Positions 15,277 through 45,871 of a DNA stretch of 64,000 nt are shown in pieces (within the stretch, counting starts at the first letter, position 1; each line of letters opens with the position of its first letter). This DNA comes from Longimicrobium sp. (GTDB taxonomy: Bacteria; Gemmatimonadota; Gemmatimonadetes; Longimicrobiales; Longimicrobiaceae), in the NCBI RefSeq assembly GCF_035474595.1, contig NZ_DATIND010000080.1, positions 62,001 to 126,000 on the forward strand. The letters are read 5' to 3'. Both the position numbers and the translations under genes were made by a program. Under the pieces are notes generated by a model that had not been told where the DNA came from, searched no databases, and saw only the letters and a program-made list of their open reading frames with translations.

Positions 15277-17037
15277 CTACCAGGTCGTCTTCCGCTCGGA
15301 AGAGATGCCCCAGACGAAGCTCACGTCGGCCGTGGGCGCGTTCTCGAGGTTGATGGTGAACTTGCCGTCGCCCGGGGTGGGGTCCGTGATCCAGTAGCTC
15401 CCCGCGCCGAAGAGCGAGCTGCGCGGCACCACGTAGATGAAGCGGATGGAGTCGACGTCGCGGTTCATCCCGTGCGAGACGACCTTGGTGGTGGTGCCGG
15501 CGGCCACGGCCACGCTGTCCGACGCCTTGGTGTTGTAGCCCCGGTTGTCGCGCACCAGCACGGCGCCCGCGGTGGGGGCCAGCTGCAGCCCGCCCTGCGA
15601 CACGTCGTTGTCCAGGATCCACGCGTTGGTCACGGCCGCCCCCACGATGATGGAGAACGCCTGCGTGGGCGGAACCGTGTCGTCGAAGCACTGGTTCCCC
15701 ACCAGCCGCACGCGGTCGCCCAGCGGCACCTCGATGCCGGCACGGAAGGCGGCCCCGCGGCCGTTGCACGAGCTCACGTTGCCGGCGATCAGCAGGCGCG
15801 ACGGCGCGGTGCTGTTGGTGCGGATCCCCGACTGCTGGCACCCCGACACGTAGTTGTCGATGCACGAGCACGCGGTGCACCCCTGGAACTCGATGCCGAT
15901 GGTCACCGCGCGCACCGTGTTGTGCGACACCGACACGTTGCGCGCGCCGCCCATCACGGAGATCCCGCTGCCGCTGTCCGAGGTGCTGAACACCGTGTTG
16001 GCCTCGATCGTCACGTCCTCGGCCCCGTCCACCTTGATCGCGGGGCCGGCCTGCGACACGGGGGTGGCGTCGACCACGTTCCCCACCACGTTCACGCCCA
16101 CCGGCACGCCGCCGGTGCTGAGCCTGGAAACGCGGATGATCCCCTGCCCCTCGTTGCTGGCGAAGCAGTTGTTCCCCAGCACGTCTACCCCGGTGTTGGC
16201 GCCGCGCACGTCGATGCACGCCGAGTCGCACTCGCCCACCACGTTCCCCTGGATCAGCACGTTGCTGCACTCCTGCACGCTGATCCCCTCGTCGCCGATC
16301 TCGCGCACGTCGTTCTCCACCACGCGGATGCGCCGGGCGCCGAACCACAGGCTGATGCCGTTGGGAATGACGTTCAGGTCGCGGCGGCCGCGCACCGTGT
16401 TCCCGCGGATGTCCACGTTGTCGCTCTCGCCTCCCAGCATGTACACGAAGTCGCCGCAGAGGACGTGGTGGTTGTGCAGGATGTGGCTGTCGCGGACGGT
16501 GTTGTAGATCTTGATGCCGTAAAGGTAGAGGTTGGTGCCGGTCTGCCAGATGCGGCAGCGCTCCACCCGCATGCGGTCCACGAGCTTCAGGCTGATGAGC
16601 CCGGGGGCGTCGGGGGGCTCGGCCCCCGGGTCCAGGCTCGTGTCCTCGATGGCCAGCCCCACCAGGCCGATGTCGCAGTCGGTGCCGGGGTCGGTGGCCG
16701 TTTCGAACGAGGCGTTGCGGAAGGCGCAGCCGTTCACCTTCAGGTGGTTGCCGGGGATCCCCTCCACGGTCACCTGGCTGGCCACGTACACCCAGTCGTC
16801 CAGCAGGTACACCGACGGGGGCACCACCACCTTTCCCCCGCCCGCGGCGGCCGCGAAGTCGATGGCCGCCTGCAGCACCTCGGTGCCGTTCGTCACCTGC
16901 CCGGCGCCGTCGCGCACCGCGCCGAAGTCGGGGTGCAGCGCGTTCACCACGGCGCCTCCCAGGTCGTACAGCGCCGCGGCGAGCGGTCCCTCCATCTCTT
17001 GCAGGTCGGGCGTGTCCAGCAGTACGGGTGTGCTCAT
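15277..17037 (-). CDS. Right-handed beta-helix (pectate-lyase-superfamily) protein, tailspike-like
   Basis: A 586-residue protein. The first 130 residues resemble the Pectate_lyase_3 entry segment: D-F-G-A-V-R-D-G, A-I-D-F-A-A-A-A-G-G-G-K-V-V-V-P. Residues about 140-500 carry some twenty short repeats of the type V-x-V-x-x-N-x-V, the coils of a parallel beta-helix. The last 80 residues, with V-V-S-H-G-M-N and F-V-W-G-I-S, form a separate beta module like the C-terminal tips of phage fibres. No signal peptide is visible. Such folds bind or cleave polysaccharide; no catalytic pair can be assigned. GGAG lies before the ATG at 17037. No other phage gene is nearby. Confidence 0.78.
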   Translation of the reverse strand: MSTPVLLDTPDLQEMEGPLAAALYDLGGAVVNALHPDFGAVRDGAGQVTNGTEVLQAAIDFAAAAGGGKVVVPPSVYLLDDWVYVASQVTVEGIPGNHLKVNGCAFRNASFETATDPGTDCDIGLVGLAIEDTSLDPGAEPPDAPGLISLKLVDRMRVERCRIWQTGTNLYLYGIKIYNTVRDSHILHNHHVLCGDFVYMLGGESDNVDIRGNTVRGRRDLNVIPNGISLWFGARRIRVVENDVREIGDEGISVQECSNVLIQGNVVGECDSACIDVRGANTGVDVLGNNCFASNEGQGIIRVSRLSTGGVPVGVNVVGNVVDATPVSQAGPAIKVDGAEDVTIEANTVFSTSDSGSGISVMGGARNVSVSHNTVRAVTIGIEFQGCTACSCIDNYVSGCQQSGIRTNSTAPSRLLIAGNVSSCNGRGAAFRAGIEVPLGDRVRLVGNQCFDDTVPPTQAFSIIVGAAVTNAWILDNDVSQGGLQLAPTAGAVLVRDNRGYNTKASDSVAVAAGTTTKVVSHGMNRDVDSIRFIYVVPRSSLFGAGSYWITDPTPGDGKFTINLENAPTADVSFVWGISSERKTTW

Positions 17038-17511
17038 GTGGGTCTCCAGTCCTCGTTTCGGCTCCCGGTTCGTCCGCACCCGCGCGGACCTCGCCCGCCG
17101 CCGCGATCCGGGAGCCCCTCGGCGGTCCAGACCTCGCCGGCCCCGGGGCGCCGCCACGCCGGGACCGCAACAAAACGCCAATTCTTGTCGGGGAAGAATA
17201 CAGGCAGCCGCGCCGGAACGTTGGGCGGTGCTCTCCGGCACCCTCCTCACGCCGGTATTGGCGCGCGGGTGCTGTGGCAGAAACGCGCGAATCCCACTCG
17301 CGCCCGCCGCCGGGGCGGAGCGTGGATCGCCGGCGTTCTTGTGGATGGATTCGGGCGGCCGGGAGACTTCAGGCCGCGGGGGCGATGGTGCCGGGCAGGA
17401 CGCCGGCCGCACGTCTTGAGACACGCGGCCGCCGCGGGACGTTACAACGCCCCGATCGTCAAAGCTGCCCGGCAGGAGTCATCTTCTTCGCACTTCCGCA
17501 CTCACGCACTT
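17038..17511. other. Gap of 474 bases upstream of the beta-helix gene
   Basis: Only a short GCACT array at 17489-17511 was recognised. The beta-helix promoter is expected here. No gene or terminator with a U-run was seen. Confidence 0.5.
17489..17511 (-). repeat. GCACT tandem array abutting the NlpC/P60 stop
   Basis: Three units (GAAGTGCG, TGAGTGCG, GAAGTGCG on the minus strand) directly follow the stop codon. Confidence 0.75.
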
Positions 17512-18582
17512 CTAGGCGACCCGCCGCGCGTTGTGGAACAGCCGCCGCAGCTCGCGCTCGTAGCTGCGGCGTCCGAGCAGGTCGTTGCGGGCCACGCCGC
17601 CGTTGCCGAGCGAGGCGTGGATGATCCGCGACCCTCCCGTGCTCATCACCACGTGCGTCACGCGGCCGGGCTCCTCGGCGAAGAAGCAGAGGTCGCCCGG
17701 CTGCAGGTTCTCGAACTCCGCGCCGGGGTCCACCTCTTCGCCGAAGCGCGACTGCTGGTCGCTGTCGCGGGGGATGAGGCGGCCGTGCAGTTTCCACACG
17801 GTCTGCACGAAGCCGCTGCAGTCCACCCCGCCGAAGGTGACGCCGCCCCACAGGTACGGCGTTCCCGTCCACCGCGACGCGGTGGCGCACACCGCCGCGC
17901 CGTCGGCGGGGAAGGCGAGCGGGCGGACGGCGGCGGCCACCAGCTCGCCGGTGAAGCGCCCCGAGCGCCCGTCGGGAAGGCGCACGACCTCGGCGCCCTC
18001 GCGCATCACCCGCGCGCCCCAGGGAAGGCGCATCATCACCTCGCCGTTCTCGGCCGGGTCCAGCACCTCGCCGCCCAGCGAGATGGCGGGCTCTCCATCT
18101 CCCCCTGTCTCCCAGGCACGCGCCGCCGCCTCGTCGCGGAGCGCGATGTAGCCGGCGTGCACCCAGCCGATGTAGCCGTCCGGCGAGCGGCACTGCAGCC
18201 AGCGCCCGCGCCGGCGGAGGACGATCAGGCGGCTGCCGAGCACCACCTGGCTCACCTGCGTGGTGGTCACCCGCGACTCCAGCAGCATCGGCGCGACGGA
18301 CGAGGTGACGAGCGCGTGCACCATCTCGTCGGGGTCGGCCTCGGGGAGGCGCTGCACCTCGTCCTGCACCGCGCTCCATCCGCGCAGGTCGGCCAGCCGC
18401 GCGGAGAGCGCTTGCGCCGCCTCGTGCTCGGAGGTGGCGCCGACCAGGGCGACGGCGTCGCCGCGCACCTCCACCGTGACCTCGAACACGCCCAGGCGCG
18501 GGTCCGGCGCGAACTCGGCGCGCACCTCCTCGACCAGCGCGGCCACGCGGGCCGCGCGCTCCTCTTCGATCGCCCTCACCAT
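17512..18582 (-). CDS. NlpC/P60 (C40) cell-wall peptidase with SH3-like domains
   Basis: A 356-residue protein. Residues 1-75 are a BON-like alpha/beta segment; about 85-210 hold two SH3-type repeats (V-V-L-G-S-R-L-I-V-L and G-Y-I-G-W-V-H-A-G-Y-I); 225-356 are the papain-like NlpC/P60 domain. The catalytic Cys is in G-V-D-C-S-G-F, the His in V-T-H-V-V-M, and the third polar site in I-I-H-A-S. It should cut peptidoglycan stem peptides. No signal peptide is seen. The start is ATG 18582, overlapping the aminotransferase stop by 7 bases, so the two genes are coupled. Confidence 0.87.
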   Translation of the reverse strand: MVRAIEEERAARVAALVEEVRAEFAPDPRLGVFEVTVEVRGDAVALVGATSEHEAAQALSARLADLRGWSAVQDEVQRLPEADPDEMVHALVTSSVAPMLLESRVTTTQVSQVVLGSRLIVLRRRGRWLQCRSPDGYIGWVHAGYIALRDEAAARAWETGGDGEPAISLGGEVLDPAENGEVMMRLPWGARVMREGAEVVRLPDGRSGRFTGELVAAAVRPLAFPADGAAVCATASRWTGTPYLWGGVTFGGVDCSGFVQTVWKLHGRLIPRDSDQQSRFGEEVDPGAEFENLQPGDLCFFAEEPGRVTHVVMSTGGSRIIHASLGNGGVARNDLLGRRSYERELRRLFHNARRVA

Positions 18583-19763
18583 CCGTCGCGCCGCTCCAGG
18601 ATCTCCATCACCCTGCCGATGTCGCCGGCCGTGTTGTACAGGTGCGGGGCGATGCGGATCGCCCCCTCGCGCAGCGAGCAGACGGCGCGCGCCCGGTGCA
18701 GCGCCGCGTACGCCCGCTCCGTGTCGCCCAGCCGGAAGCAGAAGACGCCGGAGCGCCGCGCCGCCTCCATCGGGCTGACGATCGTCGCGTCCTCCTGCGC
18801 TTCCAGCCACGCCGCCAGCGGATCGATCAGCGCGAAGACGTGGTCCCGAATGCGCTCGATCCCCGTCTCCAGCAGCAGGTTCACCGACCCGGTGAAGCCG
18901 GCTACGTCCTGCCACGCCTGCGTGCCGACCTCGAAGCGCCGCGCGTGCTCCACCAGCTCCCAGCGGTAGCGCACGCACGCGGTGAGGTCCGCGCTGGACT
19001 CCAGCGCCGTCCACCCCACCACGCGCGGCTCCATCCGCTCCACCAGCTCGCCGCGCACGTACGCGAAGCCGGTGCCGAAAGGGCCGCACAGCCACTTGTG
19101 CCCGGCGGTCGCCAGCACGTCGATCTCCGCCGCGCGCACGTCCACGGGGATGCAGCCGAGCGCCTGGATGGCATCGACCACGAACCAGGTGCCGTGCTCG
19201 CGGCAGGCGCGGCCGAACTTCTCCAGGTCCGCGTTCCACCCCGTGGCGAACTGCACGGCCGAGAGCCCGAAGATCCCCACGTCGCCGCGCGCGATCTCGG
19301 CGAGCAGGCGGTCCTCGTCCGGGCGACCGAGCGCGTCGGTGGGGACCACGTCCACGCGGGCGCGGCCCTCCTTGGCCACCTGCACCCACGGGTACACGTT
19401 GGCCGGGAACTCCAGGTTGCTGACCACGATGCGGCGCCCCTCCTCGAGCGGAAGGCACTGCGCGGCCAGGTTGATGCCGTAGCTGGTGTTGGGAAGAAGC
19501 GCGATCTCGTCGGGCGATGCGTTCACCAGCCGGGCGGCGGCGGCGCGGGCGCGCTGCAGCGTGGGCTCGAAGTCGTCGCTGCGCAGCTGGTGCACGGCCG
19601 AGCGCCGGGCGTTGTGCGCGTCGATGGCGGCTCGCGCGCGCTCCGGCAGCGGCGCGACCGAGGCGGCGTTCAGGTACGGGGGATGGCCGTCCAGGTGCGG
19701 AAACTCGCGCTCGCGGAGCGCGCGCACGTCGATCGGCGCGGCGGGGATGCTTGCATCGGGCAT
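18576..19763 (-). CDS. Class V aminotransferase (cysteine-desulfurase-like)
   Basis: A 395-residue PLP enzyme. Visible marks: Y-L-N-A-A-S-V-A near 30, N-T-S-Y-G-I-N for phosphate binding near 93, V-V-D-A-I-Q-A-L-G with the PLP-ring Asp near 190, and the Schiff-base Lys in A-T-A-G-H-K-W-L near 215. The small domain ends in I-R-I-A-P-H-L-Y-N-T, as in the isopenicillin-N-epimerase/CsdA branch. The substrate cannot be told. The downstream partner is an NlpC/P60 peptidase, so a link to peptide or amino-acid recycling is possible but unproven. Confidence 0.88.
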   Translation of the reverse strand: MPDASIPAAPIDVRALREREFPHLDGHPPYLNAASVAPLPERARAAIDAHNARRSAVHQLRSDDFEPTLQRARAAAARLVNASPDEIALLPNTSYGINLAAQCLPLEEGRRIVVSNLEFPANVYPWVQVAKEGRARVDVVPTDALGRPDEDRLLAEIARGDVGIFGLSAVQFATGWNADLEKFGRACREHGTWFVVDAIQALGCIPVDVRAAEIDVLATAGHKWLCGPFGTGFAYVRGELVERMEPRVVGWTALESSADLTACVRYRWELVEHARRFEVGTQAWQDVAGFTGSVNLLLETGIERIRDHVFALIDPLAAWLEAQEDATIVSPMEAARRSGVFCFRLGDTERAYAALHRARAVCSLREGAIRIAPHLYNTAGDIGRVMEILERRDGW

Positions 19764-19789
19764 GGGGCGGGACGATAACGGCGGGTGCG

Positions 19790-19855
19790 GATGTGCGAAA
19801 GTGCGAGAGTGCGGGAGTGCGAGTGCTGAGTGCTGAGTGCTGAGTGCCGGGCTGC
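19790..19855 (-). repeat. GCACT tandem array before the aminotransferase start
   Basis: About four 9-10 bp units and four GAGTGCT 7-mers. On the gene's strand they read GCACT ahead of its ATG, 27 bases away. Confidence 0.8.
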
Positions 19856-19874
19856 TGAGCGCGTCCTCCGCCTC

Positions 19875-20070
19875 GCGCCCTCTCCGGCCGGCTCAGGCCG
19901 TCCACCTCTCCCGTACCGGGAGAGGTAGCTTTCCGGCATCACTGCAGTTGCGATGTTCTTGTGCGGCCATGCCTGGGTTTGGCGCTGATGCTGCCTTGCC
20001 ACCTCCTCCCGGAACGGGAGGGGGTCGCGCCCTCCGGCGCGGGGGGAGGGCGCGAGGCGGAGGACGCGCG
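19875..20070. repeat. Composite GC-rich palindrome element
   Basis: Two hairpins, ACCTCTCCCGTACCGGGAGAGGT (19912-19934 region, with flanking GGCCGGCTCAGGCCGTCC) and CTCCTCCCGGAACGGGAGG followed by GCGCCCTCCGGCGC, are separated by about 60 bases. The same pair occurs in reverse order and orientation at 35819-36033. Confidence 0.7.
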
Positions 20071-38644: not shown

Positions 38645-41600
38645 TCAACGTGGGTTGTGGAGCGCGCGGGCGGCGTCGCGCTCGTCGGACGTCAGCGGAG
38701 CGAACGGGGGGATGAGGAGCTCGGTGCCGGGCGAGAGGCGGTCGGGCGACTGCAGGACGTCGCGGTTGGCGAGCCAGAGCTTGGGCCACAGGCTCCCGTC
38801 GCGGTACACGAGCCAGGCGATGGCGACCAGGTCCCCATCTCCCTCGCGGACCACGTAGGTGTCGTTCGGCCAGTCGGTGAAGCCGGACTCGCCGCGCTCG
38901 CGCCAGGGCCGCGCGGCCGCCGCCATCGCGGGGCGGTCGGCGGGACGAGCCGTCACGGCGGGCGCCGTCACCACGCCCGGGATCGCAGCGACGGGACGCG
39001 GCGGGGCGGGCGCCGATCCCCGCGCGGCCGCACCGCCCAGGACCAGGTCGCCGCCGCCGACCATCACCATCTCCCGCCTGCGAGGCACCGCGCGCAGCTC
39101 GATGCGGTGCGACTCGCCGGCGGCGAGCGTGACGCCGACGGAGCCCGGCTCCAGCGCGTGGTTGGGCGGGAGGTCGGCGCTCACCACGGCCACCGTCCAC
39201 TCCCCCGGCGGCAGGTCGGAGAAGAGGAAGCGCCCGCTCGCGTCGGTCAGCCGGCGGCGGCGCTCGTCCCCGCGGCGGATCTCCACCACGGCGCCGCTCA
39301 CGGCGCCGTCGCCCTCCTCCGGGTCGGTCACCTGGATGCGCCCCTCCACGCGGGAGGCGCGGGAGACGCCGATCTCCACGCTCCGCTCGTGCCCGCCGGC
39401 CACGTCCACCTTCAGCGCGTCCGGGCGCACGACCACGCGGCCCACGCCCACGCTCACCGGGTCGATCTCCACCGTGTAGCCGCCGGGCGCCAGGCCGGCC
39501 ACCGCCCAGCGCCCGCGCGCGTCCGTCACCACCGCGCGGTCGCCCACGCGCACCAGCGCGTCCGCCACCGGCCGCCCCGTCTCCTGGTCCACCACGCGCC
39601 CGGATACGGTCCCCGTCGCCCCGTTGCGGCCGAGGGGGACGCGCAGCGGGAGCGACCAGTCGAGGTAGACCATCGGCCTGCGGCGCCCCGCCTCGGCCCA
39701 GGGGAAGGCGCGGACGCGCAGCCGCAGCGTGTGCCCGCCGGGGAGCCGCTGCTCCACGGTGCCGTCCACCAGCCCGTCCGGCTCGCCGCTCCACTCCGTC
39801 GCCCCCGCCTGCGCCATCAGCGACACGCGCGTCCCGGAAGCGGGCTGGAGCTGCAGGGTGAAGGAGCCCAGCCAGCGGTCCATCTCCATCCCCGTCTCCA
39901 CGCTGGCGCCGGTGCGCCGCTCCACGCCGGCCCAGAGCGAGCCGATCCCCGCCGCCGTCCCCGCCCGCACCCACGTCCGGCGGAAGGGGGACGACGAGCC
40001 GTCCATGCGGTCGTCCACCGTCCCCATCTCCATCCCCCCGCCCAGCGAGGTGCGCCCCGCGCGGAAGCCCGCGGACGCGACCCACGAGTCCGAGCGCCGC
40101 GCGAACGATCCCGCCTCGTTCACCCCCTCGCGCGCCTGCATCCGCCGCTGGATGGCCAGCGCGTCGCCGATGGAGATGCCCGCGTATCCGGTCCGCGACG
40201 CCAGCTCCGTCCCCGGGAGCACGCGGCCCAGCGTGTCGGCGCGCCGCTCGCGCTCGTACCCGGCGGTCGCGCGGAGGCCGGCGGGGAGCGCGGCGCGGGC
40301 GTTCGCCTGCAGCAGCGAGCGGCCGCCCTGGTCGCCGGGATAGCCCGCGTCCGCCTCCAGCCGCCGCGCGTCGAAGCCGAAGGCGGGGCGGCTGACGAAC
40401 GCCCGCGCGTACCCGGCCCTCGCCCCGCCCGCCGCGCCGTACTCCGCGTCGACACCCACGCCGCGCGCCGGCGCCGCCCGCCCGCGCAGCGACAGGGCGG
40501 GCGCGGAGCCGTCGCCCGCGGACAGGTAGTTGGCGGCGAGCGACGCGGCCTCGCCGCCGACGCCCACCGCGCCGCCCGCCGCGCGCGGGGCGCCGGGGGT
40601 GAAGCGGTTGCGCGCGGTGAACCCCTCGGCCCACACCGCCCCGGCGTTGAAGCGGCCGCCCGCGCCGTACCCCGCGCGGCCGGGGGAGGTGAGCGGGGAA
40701 AGCGACCAGAACTGGTCGCCCAGCCGCAGCTCGCCGCGCCGGCCGCGGAGGGAGAAGGAGAGCTGCTCCTGCTCGCCCAGCTCCGGCGCGGCGGCCGCGC
40801 GCCCGCGGTAGAAGAGGTCCACGCGCGTGTCCCCCGCCACCACGCCGGAGGCCGACACCTCGCCGGGGATGCCGCCGCGCCCGTCCATCCCCGGCCCGGC
40901 GCGCAGGGCCACGGTGACGGGGAGCGTGCGCATGTCCACGCCGCCGCGCGCGCTCCGCCGCACCAGCGCCACCCGCGCCGCCGCCGACGCGGCCGCGCCC
41001 TCCGCCGTCGCGCGCAGCGTCAGGCGGTGCGTGGCCACGCCGGCCGCCGCGCGCGTGGCCACGGTGACGCGCACGAGCCTGCTCTCGCCCGCCGCGAGGT
41101 CCAGCGCGCGCACGTCCGCCCGCGCGGAGAATCCCGATGCGGACTCCACGGCCAGGCGCACGGCGGCGCGGCCGTTTCCGCGGTTGGTGACGCGGAACGC
41201 CGCCGCGTACTCCGACCCCGCGACGGCGAAGCGCGGCGCCTCCTCCACCGCCACGTCGATCCCCCGCCGCTGGTTCACGGCGATGGCCACGGAGTCGGCG
41301 AAGGCGCCCGCGCGGTAGCGGACGACGTATCGCCCCGCCGCGGCGCCGCGCGGGACGACGGTGGCGACGAGGCGGATGAGGTTCGCCCCCGGCGCGACCG
41401 GCGCGTCCGCATCGGGGGAGACGAGCGGCCACCCACGCGGCAGCGCCGCCACCGCGGCGGCCGGTGCGCCGGTCGGGTTGCGGACGTTGAAGGCGACGGC
41501 GACGGACGCGCCGGGATCGGCCTGCACGCGCGCCGCCCCGATCCGCTGCACCTGCGCGGCGAGCGGCGTCGCGAAAAGCAGAAAGCCCGCACGGAGGAAA

Positions 41601-41671
41601 CGGAGGGAGCGGAGGAACCGCGACGGGCTCCTCCGCTTCCTCCGTTCCCTCCGTGCGACACCCATCCCCAT
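38645..41671 (-). CDS. Usher-like outer-membrane barrel protein with carboxypeptidase-regulatory and LysM domains
   Basis: About 1008 residues. After the signal peptide (cleavage near L-A-A-Q 40) come two NEW3/CARDB-like beta-sandwich repeats (about 45-240), a long stretch of alternating strands with aromatic girdles consistent with a large barrel (about 245-690), two carboxypeptidase-regulatory-like domains (G-T-V-S-G-R-V-V-D at about 700 and V-E-G-R-I-Q-V near 785), and a C-terminal LysM-like domain (T-Y-V-V-R-E-G-D-G-D-L near 935). Its place after a PapD-like chaperone and a small exported subunit suggests an usher. Residues 6-28 are encoded by a palindromic repeat. The usher role is inferred from plan and context. 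Confidence 0.68.
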   Translation of the reverse strand: MGMGVARRERRKRRSPSRFLRSLRFLRAGFLLFATPLAAQVQRIGAARVQADPGASVAVAFNVRNPTGAPAAAVAALPRGWPLVSPDADAPVAPGANLIRLVATVVPRGAAAGRYVVRYRAGAFADSVAIAVNQRRGIDVAVEEAPRFAVAGSEYAAAFRVTNRGNGRAAVRLAVESASGFSARADVRALDLAAGESRLVRVTVATRAAAGVATHRLTLRATAEGAAASAAARVALVRRSARGGVDMRTLPVTVALRAGPGMDGRGGIPGEVSASGVVAGDTRVDLFYRGRAAAAPELGEQEQLSFSLRGRRGELRLGDQFWSLSPLTSPGRAGYGAGGRFNAGAVWAEGFTARNRFTPGAPRAAGGAVGVGGEAASLAANYLSAGDGSAPALSLRGRAAPARGVGVDAEYGAAGGARAGYARAFVSRPAFGFDARRLEADAGYPGDQGGRSLLQANARAALPAGLRATAGYERERRADTLGRVLPGTELASRTGYAGISIGDALAIQRRMQAREGVNEAGSFARRSDSWVASAGFRAGRTSLGGGMEMGTVDDRMDGSSSPFRRTWVRAGTAAGIGSLWAGVERRTGASVETGMEMDRWLGSFTLQLQPASGTRVSLMAQAGATEWSGEPDGLVDGTVEQRLPGGHTLRLRVRAFPWAEAGRRRPMVYLDWSLPLRVPLGRNGATGTVSGRVVDQETGRPVADALVRVGDRAVVTDARGRWAVAGLAPGGYTVEIDPVSVGVGRVVVRPDALKVDVAGGHERSVEIGVSRASRVEGRIQVTDPEEGDGAVSGAVVEIRRGDERRRRLTDASGRFLFSDLPPGEWTVAVVSADLPPNHALEPGSVGVTLAAGESHRIELRAVPRRREMVMVGGGDLVLGGAAARGSAPAPPRPVAAIPGVVTAPAVTARPADRPAMAAAARPWRERGESGFTDWPNDTYVVREGDGDLVAIAWLVYRDGSLWPKLWLANRDVLQSPDRLSPGTELLIPPFAPLTSDERDAARALHNPR
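41589..41656. repeat. Long palindrome inside the usher signal-peptide region
   Basis: Arms 41589-41616 and 41629-41656 pair with only wobble-type differences. It has the CGGAGG/CCTCCG theme of the CTCAC-CGGAG family and encodes residues 6-28 of the usher-like protein. Confidence 0.8.
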
Positions 41672-41677
41672 CAAAGC

Positions 41678-42481
41678 TCAGAGCTTCAGGCTGTACTGCG
41701 CGCCGAAGACCTGGTCGCCGCCCGCGTCGGCCACGACGAGCGCCTGGTAGCTGCCCGGCGGCACCGCGCCCAGCTCGAACGTCTGCCGCAGCGAGGTGCC
41801 GGGGTACAGCAGCCCGCGCCGGCTGGTGAACGTCCCCGCCTTGCCGCCGGCGGCGTCGAACAGCTCCACGCGGATCTCGGGGCGGTAGGCCACGTCGCCC
41901 GCGTTCGCCAGGTCCAGCTCCAGCACCTTCCCCTGCGCGGCGGCGTAGGCGCGGGCGCTGGTGAACGACACCTTTGGCGCGCCCGTGCCCTCCAGCGTGG
42001 TCGCGATCTGCACGCCGTAGCGGGTGGACGGCTGGATGCCCACCCGCACGCGCGCGTTCGCCGCGCCCGAGGTCGATTCGGCGCTCCCGCGCGCGATCCC
42101 CTCGATCATCAGGATGCTCCAGTACGTGCCGCCCAGCGACGCGTCCGCCGGGACCGTCACCGTGTAGCCCACCGTGGCCTCGCCGCCCGCGGGGATGCGC
42201 ACCTGCGACGGGGTGAACGCGATCCACCGCGCGCTGCTCCGCGGCAGCGACCCGGCGGCCGCGTACCGCGTGGTGCCGTCGGCCGCGAAGGTGTAGTCGG
42301 TGAGGTAGACCTTGGCCTCCTCGGCCTGCCGCCCGTCGTTGCGCAGGCGCAGCGTGCCGCTGTACGTCTCGCCCGGGCGGGCCGCGTGCTCCTCGACGCC
42401 GCTGCCGATCACGCTGACCTGCGCGCGGGCGGTGATGGAGAAGGCGGAGAGGGCGAGGGAGAGGATGAGTGCTCGCTTCAT
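41678..42481 (-). CDS. PapD-like periplasmic chaperone
   Basis: A 267-residue protein with a signal peptide ending I-T-A-R-A-Q. The N-terminal Ig-like domain has R-P-G-E-T-Y-S-G-T-L-R-L-R-N-D-G, then I-A-F-T-P-S-Q-V-R-I-P-A-G-G-E, the beta-strand edge and loop of pilus chaperones; a second sandwich follows from about 150. Chaperones of this type donate a strand to pilus subunits and bring them to the usher. It stops 7 bases before the usher start, and the subunit gene lies upstream. Confidence 0.75.
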   Translation of the reverse strand: MKRALILSLALSAFSITARAQVSVIGSGVEEHAARPGETYSGTLRLRNDGRQAEEAKVYLTDYTFAADGTTRYAAAGSLPRSSARWIAFTPSQVRIPAGGEATVGYTVTVPADASLGGTYWSILMIEGIARGSAESTSGAANARVRVGIQPSTRYGVQIATTLEGTGAPKVSFTSARAYAAAQGKVLELDLANAGDVAYRPEIRVELFDAAGGKAGTFTSRRGLLYPGTSLRQTFELGAVPPGSYQALVVADAGGDQVFGAQYSLKL

Positions 42482-42497
42482 GGTTCCCGCATCGTCA

Positions 42498-42545
42498 GAA
42501 AAAAGAAGCCGCGGGCGCGGCGGATGGTGGCTCCGCCGCGCCCGC
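42498..42545 (-). terminator. Terminator/attenuator between subunit and chaperone genes
   Basis: A perfect 14-bp stem (42511-42524 with 42532-42545, loop 7) is followed on the minus strand by CTTCTTTTTTCTG. It lies in the 81-base gap after the subunit stop. Confidence 0.88.
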
Positions 42546-42562
42546 AGGGAGAAAGGGGAGCG

Positions 42563-43048
42563 TCAGGCGCCCGCGACGATGGTGTAGGTCACGGTGCGGG
42601 TGGTCGCCGCCACCACGCCCGCCGACGCCGCGGCCGACAGCGTGTAGGTGAGGCCCAGCCCGCTCACGCTCGTCCGGCCCACGTTCGTGAGCACGTCCTG
42701 CGCGGACGTCCCCAGCTGCACCGTGCCGGCGCTGGTTCCCAGCGACGGCGCGGCCAGGTTCACCGACAGGGTCACCCCCGGCGGCGTGTCGCTGTCGAGC
42801 TGCGCGGTGACCTTGCGGCCGGTCTCGTTGGTGGTGATGGCGTAGGTGGCGTTGGCCGTGGCCGAGTTCAGCGCGCCGCCGGTCGCGGCCGAGCTGATGA
42901 CCAGCGAGGGCGAGCCGGTGAAGGCGATCTGGTTGATGGCCTGCACCTCGAGCGTCACGTCCTGCGTGTTGGAGGACTGCGCGTGCGCCTTGCCGGCGCC
43001 GAAGGCGGCGAGGACGAGGGCGGGGGCGGCGAACCGGATGAGCTTCAT
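42563..43048 (-). CDS. Small exported beta-sandwich subunit (pilin-like)
   Basis: A 161-residue protein. The signal peptide ends A-H-A-Q near 24. The mature part is Ala/Thr/Ser/Val-rich with alternating strands (D-V-T-L-E-V-Q-A-I, V-T-L-S-V-N-L, L-T-Y-T-L-S-A) and finishes T-R-T-V-T-Y-T-I-V-A-G-A. Size, strand pattern and position ahead of a chaperone and usher resemble spore-coat-U/Csu-type pilus subunits. No Cys pair is present. It should be the most abundant product of the locus, since a terminator follows it. Confidence 0.68.
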   Translation of the reverse strand: MKLIRFAAPALVLAAFGAGKAHAQSSNTQDVTLEVQAINQIAFTGSPSLVISSAATGGALNSATANATYAITTNETGRKVTAQLDSDTPPGVTLSVNLAAPSLGTSAGTVQLGTSAQDVLTNVGRTSVSGLGLTYTLSAAASAGVVAATTRTVTYTIVAGA

Positions 43049-43554: not shown

Positions 43555-44475
43555 TCAGGATTTCGGCGCGCCGGGCGGCTCGGGGACCATGAGCGTCAGC
43601 CGCCCGGGCGCGAACGCGTAGTCGAAGCGCCGCGCGCACAGCGGCTCGCCGTCGGCGTTCACGGCCAGCTCCTCGGCGGCGTCGATGCGGAGGGAGGGCA
43701 CCTGGCGGTAGGTCACGCGCGGGTGGTCCACGTGGCCGCCGGCGCGCACCTGCGGCGCGATGCGCGCGAACTCCAGGCGGCTCATCTCCTCGATGATGCA
43801 GACGTCCAGCAGCCGGTCGTCCATCTCCGCCCGCGCGGTCAGGTGGATGCCGCCGCCGGTGCGCCGCGCGTTGCCCACCGCGAACACCAGGAACTCGCCG
43901 TCGTGCAGCGTCTCGCCGCCGGAGGTGAAGCGGGCGCGCGACGCCTCCAGCCGCACGAACTTGCGCACGCCCGTCACCACGTAGGCCACCGGCCCCAGCA
44001 CGCTCTTCAGCGCCTCCGGCGACTCGCCCGTGGCCTCGGCGCCGAAGCCGCCGGTGGACACGTTCAGGAAGCAGCGCCCGTTCACCGTCGGCACGTCCAC
44101 GCAGAAGGGGATGCCCGCCACGGCCACCGCCAGCGCCGCCTCCGGGTCGCCGAGGGGGATGCCGAGCCCCGCCGCCAGGTCGTTGGCCGTTCCCAGCGGG
44201 AGGATGGCGAGCCGCGGCGCGGAGGCGGCGCCCGCGCGCGCCACCAGGCCGTTCACCACCTCGTTCACCGTCCCGTCCCCGCCCGCGGCCACCACCAGCC
44301 CGGCGCCGCCGTCCGCCGCCTCGCCGGCGAAGCGCGACGCGTCGCCCGCCTCGAAGGTCACCCGCGCCGCGACGTCGTGGCCGGCGCCGCGCAGCTTCTC
44401 CACCCCGCTCCGCACCTCGTCCACGGAGCCGGGCTTCACGATCAGAACGATCCGCACGATCCTGCGTCCTTCCAT
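43555..44475 (-). CDS. Diacylglycerol kinase-family lipid kinase (YegS-like)
   Basis: A 306-residue ATP-dependent lipid kinase. The nucleotide site reads V-V-A-A-G-G-D-G-T-V-N-E-V near 62-74, followed by L-P-L-G-T-A-N-D-L-A near 92-101; the C-terminal domain has G-G-F-G-A-E-A, F-A-V-G-N-A-R-R-T-G-G-G and the closing N-A-D-G-E-P. It probably phosphorylates diacylglycerol or a related lipid at the membrane. Confidence 0.9.
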   Translation of the reverse strand: MEGRRIVRIVLIVKPGSVDEVRSGVEKLRGAGHDVAARVTFEAGDASRFAGEAADGGAGLVVAAGGDGTVNEVVNGLVARAGAASAPRLAILPLGTANDLAAGLGIPLGDPEAALAVAVAGIPFCVDVPTVNGRCFLNVSTGGFGAEATGESPEALKSVLGPVAYVVTGVRKFVRLEASRARFTSGGETLHDGEFLVFAVGNARRTGGGIHLTARAEMDDRLLDVCIIEEMSRLEFARIAPQVRAGGHVDHPRVTYRQVPSLRIDAAEELAVNADGEPLCARRFDYAFAPGRLTLMVPEPPGAPKS

Positions 44476-44544
44476 CTCCCGTCCCGCTCGTCGCCGGACG
44501 AGCGGAGGCCGGGCCCGCAGGTGGGTGCGGGTGGTGGGGACGAT

Positions 44545-44586
44545 GCGGCCGAAGCCGCTACGACACGTCGTCCGCGCTCGCGGACT
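44545..44586 (+). repeat. Two-hairpin interspersed repeat, copy 8
   Basis: GCGGC[CGAA]GCCGC, short linker TACGACACGTCG, then TCCGC/GCGGA. Upstream of the lipid kinase gene. Confidence 0.7.
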
Positions 44587-44705
44587 TCCCGGCGATCCGG
44601 CAACATCCCCGCCATTCTGCCGCTCACGGCCGAGCGGCGGGATTTTCCCTCGCGGCTATCGCGATCCGGCTCTCACCCCGAAGGATGCGAGCTTCCCCGC
44701 CTGCT

Positions 44706-45038
44706 TCAGCAGGTGCAGGTGACGGCGCACGAGGCCTCGGGCGTTGAGTTACAGGCATAGCACGTGTTGTAGCAGGTGGCGACGTCCGCGCACGTGTTGC
44801 ACGTGCCGTAGCAGGTCATGCCGCCGACGGCAGACGGGCAGCTCACGCAGGAGTTGTCCGTGTAAATGCCGCTGCCGCAATCGCCCACGAAGGTGCAGTC
44901 GGATACCCACGAATAGCCCGTGTCCTTGTCCCTGATCTGCCCGCGCCCTTTCACCGTGCCCCGGACCGGAGGAGTGCCGGGATTGACCGCGAAGGATTCC
45001 ACCGCGAGCTGTTCAAGGTCCAGCTTCAGCTTGTTCAT
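44706..45038 (-). CDS. Cys-rich RiPP precursor with pinensin-type leader
   Basis: A 110-residue product with GGGAG six bases before its ATG. The first 30 residues, K-L-K-L-D-L-E-Q-L-A-V-E-S-F then R-G-T-V-K-G, match the leader style of pinensin-family lanthipeptides (KLxLD-xxL-VESF ... RGTV). The last 65 residues hold 13 cysteines with many Ser and Thr (for example T-C-Y-G-T-C-N-T-C), a composition suited to thioether or disulfide formation. No LanB/LanC, LanM, protease or transporter gene is in the window, so modification would need distant enzymes. The RiPP call is by motif; an unmodified disulfide-rich peptide is the alternative. Confidence 0.78.
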   Translation of the reverse strand: MNKLKLDLEQLAVESFAVNPGTPPVRGTVKGRGQIRDKDTGYSWVSDCTFVGDCGSGIYTDNSCVSCPSAVGGMTCYGTCNTCADVATCYNTCYACNSTPEASCAVTCTC

Positions 45039-45344
45039 GCCGCGCTCCCAGCAAAAAGTTTACGGCCCGGCTCCAGAGGTGGAGGCGCGGCCGCCACCAA
45101 ACTGAGACACATCCCTAGTCGAGTCAATTAATATTCGTGAAAGGTGTGTTAACTCACGTCAGGAGGTGCGGGTGAGGAGAATGCGGAAGGCACCTGGTCG
45201 CGTGAATTGCCCTCCCCGCTCCCCCACGAAAGTCACTTCATCTCCCCACTTCTCCCCACCGTCACCCCACCTGACGCGAAAACGCAGAGTTCACGCGGCC
45301 TCGCGCGCGCGCAGACCTGCACGGCTGTTCGGCTTATCTTCGTC

Positions 45345-45372
45345 TTGACTCGCTGGATTCCCGCACTATCTT
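45345..45372 (+). promoter_or_regulatory. dcw operon promoter
   Basis: TTGACT (45345-45350), a 16-base spacer and TATCTT (45367-45372), about 70 bases ahead of mraZ and directly ahead of the MraZ boxes. Confidence 0.65.
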
Positions 45373-45381
45373 GCGGCGCGG

Positions 45382-45406
45382 TGGGGAAGAGTGGGACGTT
45401 GTGGGG
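45382..45406 (+). promoter_or_regulatory. Three MraZ-binding boxes
   Basis: TGGGG, TGGGA and TGGGG at 45382, 45392 and 45402 follow the known MraZ operator rule TGGGN-N5-TGGGN-N5-TGGGN exactly. They overlap the expected transcription start, consistent with autorepression. Confidence 0.85.
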
Positions 45407-45439
45407 AACCGAGGGGAACCTGCCCTTCCGGGGAGAGGG

Positions 45440-45871
45440 ATGCGCGGCTACCTGGGCAGCTTTCAGCACCAGATCGACGAGAAGGGCCGGCTCAGCCTTC
45501 CCGCGCAGTTCCGGCGGGAGAGCGGCGACGAGGCCCTGGTGCTGGTGCATGCCTTTCCCGAGTCGCTCACGCTGTATCCCCAGTCCACCTGGACCAAGGT
45601 GGAGGAGCGGCTGCGGGAGATGATGCGCTCCTCGCCCCAGGCCCGCGCCTACGTCCTGAGCGTGACCGCCAACGCGGTCGAGGTGGCGCCCGACAAGCAG
45701 GGCCGCATCCTGGTGCCGCAGCGGATGCAGGAGGCGGTGGGGATCACGGGGCCGGCGCTGGTGGTCGGCGCGCTCGACAAGATCGAGCTGTGGAACCCCG
45801 ACCGCTTTGCCGCGGCCACCGCCGAAACGGCCGCCGAGACCCAGAACTTCACGCACCAGATCTTCGCCTGA
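45440..45871 (+). CDS. mraZ: Transcriptional regulator MraZ
   Basis: A 143-residue AbrB-like ring protein with two repeats. Visible marks: M-R-G-Y-L-G-S-F-Q-H-Q-I-D-E-K-G-R-L-S-L-P-A-Q-F-R at the start and D-K-Q-G-R-I-L-V-P-Q in the second half: the DxKGRxxxP motifs that bind DNA. It represses the dcw operon from the boxes just upstream. GGGGAGAGGG precedes the ATG; the start matches the family N-terminus. Confidence 0.95.
   Translation: MRGYLGSFQHQIDEKGRLSLPAQFRRESGDEALVLVHAFPESLTLYPQSTWTKVEERLREMMRSSPQARAYVLSVTANAVEVAPDKQGRILVPQRMQEAVGITGPALVVGALDKIELWNPDRFAAATAETAAETQNFTHQIFA

Follow-up and report, generated by a model that had tools for sequence, protein, structure and literature searches.

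A 13-cysteine peptide gene of Longimicrobium sp. belongs to a large leader-sharing family and probably encodes a substrate of a distant class I lanthipeptide enzyme set

A gene for a 110-residue peptide with 13 cysteines lies in the window, as we call the whole 64,000-nucleotide stretch of Longimicrobium sp. DNA analysed here. We consider it probable that this gene is a class I lanthipeptide-type precursor, and that an enzyme set encoded on another contig, C23, acts on it in trans and is common to at least 178 precursors. The initial annotation had proposed a RiPP precursor, to be checked by searching the genome for leader-sharing paralogs and RiPP enzymes; both were found, which upholds the RiPP assignment.

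Results

The window gene and its leader

The open reading frame lies at the coordinates first described. It runs from ATG to TGA on the minus strand, and the following features were assigned.

44706..45038, minus strand: precursor gene, 110 aa, 13 Cys (ATG-to-TGA ORF; leader profile E about 1e-13 to 1e-15)
44946..45038, minus strand: leader, residues 1-31, MNKLKLDLEQLAVESFAVNPGTPPVRGTVKG, with LxLD and Lx4F motifs (alignment with 33 paralogs)
44709..44945, minus strand: core, residues 32-110, 79 aa, 13 Cys and 19 Ser/Thr (read directly)
45045..45049, minus strand: GGGAG, Shine-Dalgarno-like, 7-11 bases upstream of the start (sequence)
44615..45233, no strand assigned: lineage-specific segment, the gene with its flanks (blastn against the syntenic G121 locus)

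The ORF is real and not a chance occurrence, since a Cys-free, leader-only profile matched it at about 1e-13 to 1e-15. All 13 cysteines fell in the C-terminal part. Ser or Thr immediately preceded 10 of them (position -1, shuffle P = 0.0004) and occupied position -5 of six, the latter not significant for this core alone (shuffle P = 0.12). A Pfam search of the protein gave no match. The leader contained LKLD, and the family consensus KLxLD carries the FxLD or LxLD motif used as the leader criterion for class I; LxLD is a variant of FxLD, and LxLD and Lx4F are recognition motifs of lanthipeptide and thiopeptide RiPP recognition elements (RREs) (PMC12710340). We infer that the exact site of leader/core cleavage lies after residue 31. 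On the NCBIfam pinensin leader model, NF038180, the gene scored 16 bits for a cut-off of 24, so it is not filed as a member of that family; the earlier description of the leader as pinensin-style thus holds for the resemblance and is approximate as a label.

The gene sits between a diacylglycerol-kinase-like gene and mraZ (start 45440), with dcw genes beyond mraZ. At the same locus of G121, the closest relative, blastn aligned window positions 44301-44614 and 45234-45500 and nothing in the middle, where G121 carries about 176 bp and the window 619 bp with the gene. None of nine relatives had a leader-family gene at the diacylglycerol kinase/mraZ site, and none had a match to, or ortholog of, the window core; this single copy thus gives no sign of selection. 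Because the G121 site is replaced and the nine relatives have neither gene nor core match, the window copy is most plausibly a young member of the family, specific to this lineage. A dcw-linked function was rejected, the site being empty in all nine. The proximity to the dcw cluster noted at first is therefore correct as a position and best read as incidental, a feature of a lineage-specific insertion. Flanking repeats or a mobile-element signature were looked for at the insertion, with nothing of note. Elsewhere in the window, at 38645-43048 on the minus strand, three adjacent genes, possibly a surface-fibre or chaperone-usher-like set, encode a 161-aa secreted-looking, a 267-aa Fn3-like and a 1009-aa carboxypeptidase-regulatory-domain protein.

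A further possibility, which we regard as unlikely, is that the family is real but the window copy silent or decaying. Its core is unique and its insertion lineage-specific, and no sigma-70-like promoter or terminator was found for it. Set against decay are the intact frame, the ribosome-binding site, a leader of full consensus and the Ser/Thr-Cys dyads at 10 of 13 cysteines, and we prefer to treat the gene as an intact precursor.

The leader family across the genome

A search of the genome (6.57 Mb in 163 contigs) returned dozens of ORFs with the same leader, of the pattern KLxLDxxxLxVESF...GTVxG. Among 33 aligned leaders, positions M1, K3, L6, F16, G27 and T28 were invariant. The leader profile matched all 150 of 150 scored candidates (weakest 1.8e-6), giving a total of at least 150. 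A leader-only search of 1.36 Mb found 135 genes, 28 of them outside the listed 150; together with 43 listed elsewhere, at least 178 distinct genes share the leader, the 43 being identified by leader match alone and the core figures below covering the 135. The true number of precursors could be well above 178, because only four of the 14 leader-family genes in a random 634-kb sample were among those listed. The gene had been called an orphan: this is apt for its position and not for its family, in which it has so many siblings.

The 135 genes occupied 55 places, some standing alone and others in tandem arrays with a maximum of nine members. Mean identity was 49% between leaders and 22% between cores (20% for shuffled cores). 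No shared promoter motif was found upstream of the precursors, only an AT-rich dip near -100, and no modifying gene recurred near the dispersed ones. Recurring neighbours were generic families only, and were rejected as cognate enzymes.

Cysteine spacing in the cores

Every core of the 135 genes, which were found by leader only, contained cysteine (median 6, range 2-18), at 15% of residues versus 0.67% in the proteome. The 13 cysteines of the window core, at first thought unusual, fall within this range.

Ser or Thr stood at -5 of 44% of cysteines versus 24% in within-core shuffles (z = 14.4, 132 non-redundant cores); in the same set they were enriched at -1 (z = 13.1) and depleted at -2. Of cysteines having another cysteine at -4, 78% had Ser/Thr at -5, that is, [S/T]CxxxC. 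As positions -1 and -5 are coupled through the Cys spacing of four, the first cysteine of each core was tested alone: Ser/Thr at -5 was found in 37% versus 24%, a value reached in none of 500 shuffles (pooled genomes), with a weaker effect at -1. The all-Cys pattern was replicated in cores of G121, G124 and G010 dissimilar to those of the window's genome (z = 9.8, 12.8 and 6.2).

The number of Ser/Thr followed that of Cys (partial r = 0.60 in this genome and 0.31-0.72 in relatives), and Ser plus Thr equalled or exceeded Cys in 132 of 135 cores. Over 330 pairs of related cores, Cys was kept at 96%, Ser/Thr at -5/-1 at 91-95%, other Ser/Thr at 75% and other residue classes at 41-65%. Orthologous cores gave dN/dS = 0.38 (31 pairs), a set biased to conserved cores since the pairs were chosen for over 60% identity. 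This pattern is compatible with thioether rings that join Ser/Thr(i) to Cys(i+5) and frequently interlock.

The initial annotation had offered a disulfide-rich peptide as an alternative. By that account these would be small peptides devoid of thioethers, with a leader serving export or folding only. The cores are indeed very Cys-rich, and even Cys counts were slightly in excess in this genome (81 even versus 54 odd of 135, P = 0.025), an effect that did not reach significance in relatives; on this account some of the cysteines may form disulfides. Even counts would be the rule for disulfide-rich secreted peptides; here 40% of cores (54/135) were odd, the window core with its 13 among them. Further, the number of Ser/Thr and their placement at -5/-1 go together with Cys and are conserved alongside it, something that disulfides would not require. 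A Sec signal was not visible in the sequence, and the same leader recurs in tandem beside LanB and LanC genes. The Ser/Thr-Cys statistics thus disfavour the disulfide account, to which we assign very little probability; judged by their sequences, the cores look like thioether substrates.

A class I enzyme cluster outside the window

No LanB, LanB elimination (LanB-C) or LanC gene occurred within the window, in agreement with the first reading, which had suggested trans-acting enzymes. LanB and LanC genes do exist elsewhere in the genome. A co-oriented gene group on contig C23 includes a LanB glutamylation gene (3' part only), a distinct gene for the LanB elimination protein, a LanC of 683 aa and six leader-sharing precursors. 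Also encoded there are an HlyD-type adaptor, a QhpE-like subtilisin (S8) protease and an ABC transporter that lacks a C39 domain. The cluster with these precursors contains split LanB and LanC and no LanM, and no MNIO enzyme was found among its proteins.

Lant_dehydr_N (LanB glutamylation, PF04738) scored 128 bits on contig C4 and 49.6 bits on C23, TbtB being the nearest solved relative (4.7e-18). Lant_dehydr_C (LanB elimination, PF14028) scored 144 bits, with NisB motifs aligned, on a gene present in single copy in this genome, on C23; LANC_like (PF05147) scored 195 bits. At its end, C4 carries a LanB glutamylation gene of which the 5' part is present; the adjacent gene shares 88% identity with the one preceding the intact G121 cluster. 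Where the C4 and C23 parts overlap they are about 77% identical, which points to either a duplicated gene or a mosaic assembly; because both parts are cut at contig ends, an intact copy is seen in relatives only. The G121 cluster is intact and has ten precursors, and the cluster was also found in G010, G119, G124, G125 and the MAG RYN_364.

The zinc ligands of LanC (C313, C360 and H361) were invariant among seven orthologs. An AlphaFold2 model of the full protein reached pLDDT 82 and pTM 0.84, and in it residues 9-447 adopted a LanC fold (Z up to 33 for CuvL, 28.7 for LicM2 and 25.5 for NisC). Residues 446-683, modelled separately (pLDDT 85), resembled TglI (Z = 13.5) and NGO1945 (Z = 11.6) over 191-206 residues, the next entry scoring 8.2. 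In the model the final 110 residues resembled the leader-binding RREs of TbiB1, lasso B1 and PqqD (Z = 6-7), and Pfam PqqD and NGO1945_C gave weak matches on the extension. TglI and NGO1945 are partners of MNIO enzymes consisting of DUF2063 and an RRE (PMC12452194). The LanC C-terminus is accordingly predicted, from models, to be a DUF2063-like plus RRE leader-binding module. We infer that, of the leader motifs LxLD and Lx4F, one serves LanB and the other this module.

Co-occurrence of leader family and enzymes

Ten genomes of the genus were compared. The leader family and a C23-type LanB were both present in seven and both absent from three (Fisher P = 0.008, with sister genomes and paralogs not independent samples); one of the three is 95% complete. 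Leader-family counts were 150 or more in this genome and in G121, 142 in G124, and 77, 17, 11, 1, 0, 0 and 0 in the rest; the LanB of the genome with the single match showed 38% identity. Across 119 genomes sampled from the class, the only two with a strong leader family, or with a LanB over the cut-off, were those from this genus.

The precursors could instead be modified by another enzyme than the C23 LanB/LanC: LanM-like (C136/C25), class III-like (C87) or unrecognised. The genome does hold three further LanC-domain genes. Those on C136 and C87, however, are accompanied by precursors of their own, whose leaders are unrelated, and the leader family tracks the C23-type LanB over the ten genomes. 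Other LanC genes also occur in G120, G122 and G126, genomes without the leader family, and so do not explain it. We therefore think modification by another enzyme improbable, and retain the C23 set as the candidate machinery.

Several other loci were recorded in passing. In this genome, a separate class II-like system on C136 (L040, 297-4231) comprises a LanM-like gene of 1082 aa and two near-identical precursors ending CCDGTKVCCC, and a class III-like system on C87 (L041, 5190-8714) has a 937-aa LanC-domain protein between two small LSLQ-motif precursors. In G124, some ten short precursors whose leaders read ELxDExLExVxGG surround two LanM-like genes (L128, C28:5001-25000). A second, divergent class I cluster in G121 (L133, C98:3001-23000, at 15824-19999; LanB 46% identical) has precursors whose leader differs (MHAKLNLSLDELRIRTF), and CSNCSDC repeats make up a core with 17 Cys. 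G123, the genome with one leader-family match, holds a divergent LanB/LanC/ABC/HlyD/S8 cluster (L136, C30, 3806-14678; LanB 37-38%).

Discussion

We propose that the leader would be bound by RREs of the distant C23 enzymes, with the 5' part of LanB on C4. Glutamylation and elimination of Ser/Thr would fall to the split LanB. LanC, fused to its DUF2063-like plus RRE module, would form the (methyl)lanthionine rings, which would commonly join Ser/Thr(i) to Cys(i+5) and often interlock as [S/T]CxxxC. The S8 protease of the cluster may remove the leader, and its ABC/HlyD pair may export the product. One enzyme set would thus serve at least 178 precursors, a fast-turning-over library of presumably active peptides.

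We lean, with less assurance, towards a broader reading: that of a class I machine with a DUF2063-RRE-fused cyclase, serving in trans at least 178 dispersed precursors that are rapidly gained and lost, and producing interlocked i/i+5 ring ladders. This would be the largest natural single-genome lanthipeptide library reported, and the first for class I in the literature searched. In the open-access literature, our search found no Gemmatimonadota or Longimicrobium papers on these peptides; three lanthipeptide regions are listed by antiSMASH for L. terrae, without detail.

If one LanB/LanC set does modify at least 178 substrates, the system would be a class I natural counterpart of ProcM and SyncM, with a substrate set more than twice the 79 of SyncM, the largest reported (PMC9872173). 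The very Cys-rich cores could be useful in peptide engineering. How promiscuous enzymes set ring topology would become testable, because a simple rule can be read from the cores, with Ser/Thr five residues ahead of Cys. Mining tools that search near LanC genes only would miss over 95% of these precursors.

Among known systems, the prochlorosins and synechococsins (29 precursors for ProcM and 79 for SyncM; function unknown; PMC9872173, PMC10783134) are alike in having one promiscuous enzyme set, presumptive here, with scattered single or tandem precursors, a conserved leader and divergent cores. Theirs, however, is a class II LanM with Nif11-type leaders, whereas here the enzymes are a split class I LanB and a LanC, the leader is a different one and the precursors number at least 178. 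By analogy the system appears functionally prochlorosin-like, yet it is not a member, because prochlorosins use class II LanM.

Pinensins (Chitinophaga; NF038180; precursor family I 17, PMC7268733) share the split LanB, a LanC closest to LanM cyclase domains, and a leader related at the profile level, with 22 of 34 paralogs matching at E up to 1 (best 2.7e-6). They differ in that the window gene falls below the NF038180 cut-off and that well over a hundred precursors are dispersed here; the protease here is S8, whereas class I clusters of Bacteroidetes often have C39. Bacteroidetes class I lanthipeptides with LxLxKx5L leaders are likewise class I, with several precursors and a related leader logic (PMC7268733), but have GG leaders and C39 proteases, neither seen here. 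Finally, the MNIO partners TglI and NGO1945 (DUF2063 plus RRE) share the predicted fold of LanC residues 446-683, whereas the module here is fused to a lanthionine cyclase, in a cluster without an MNIO enzyme.
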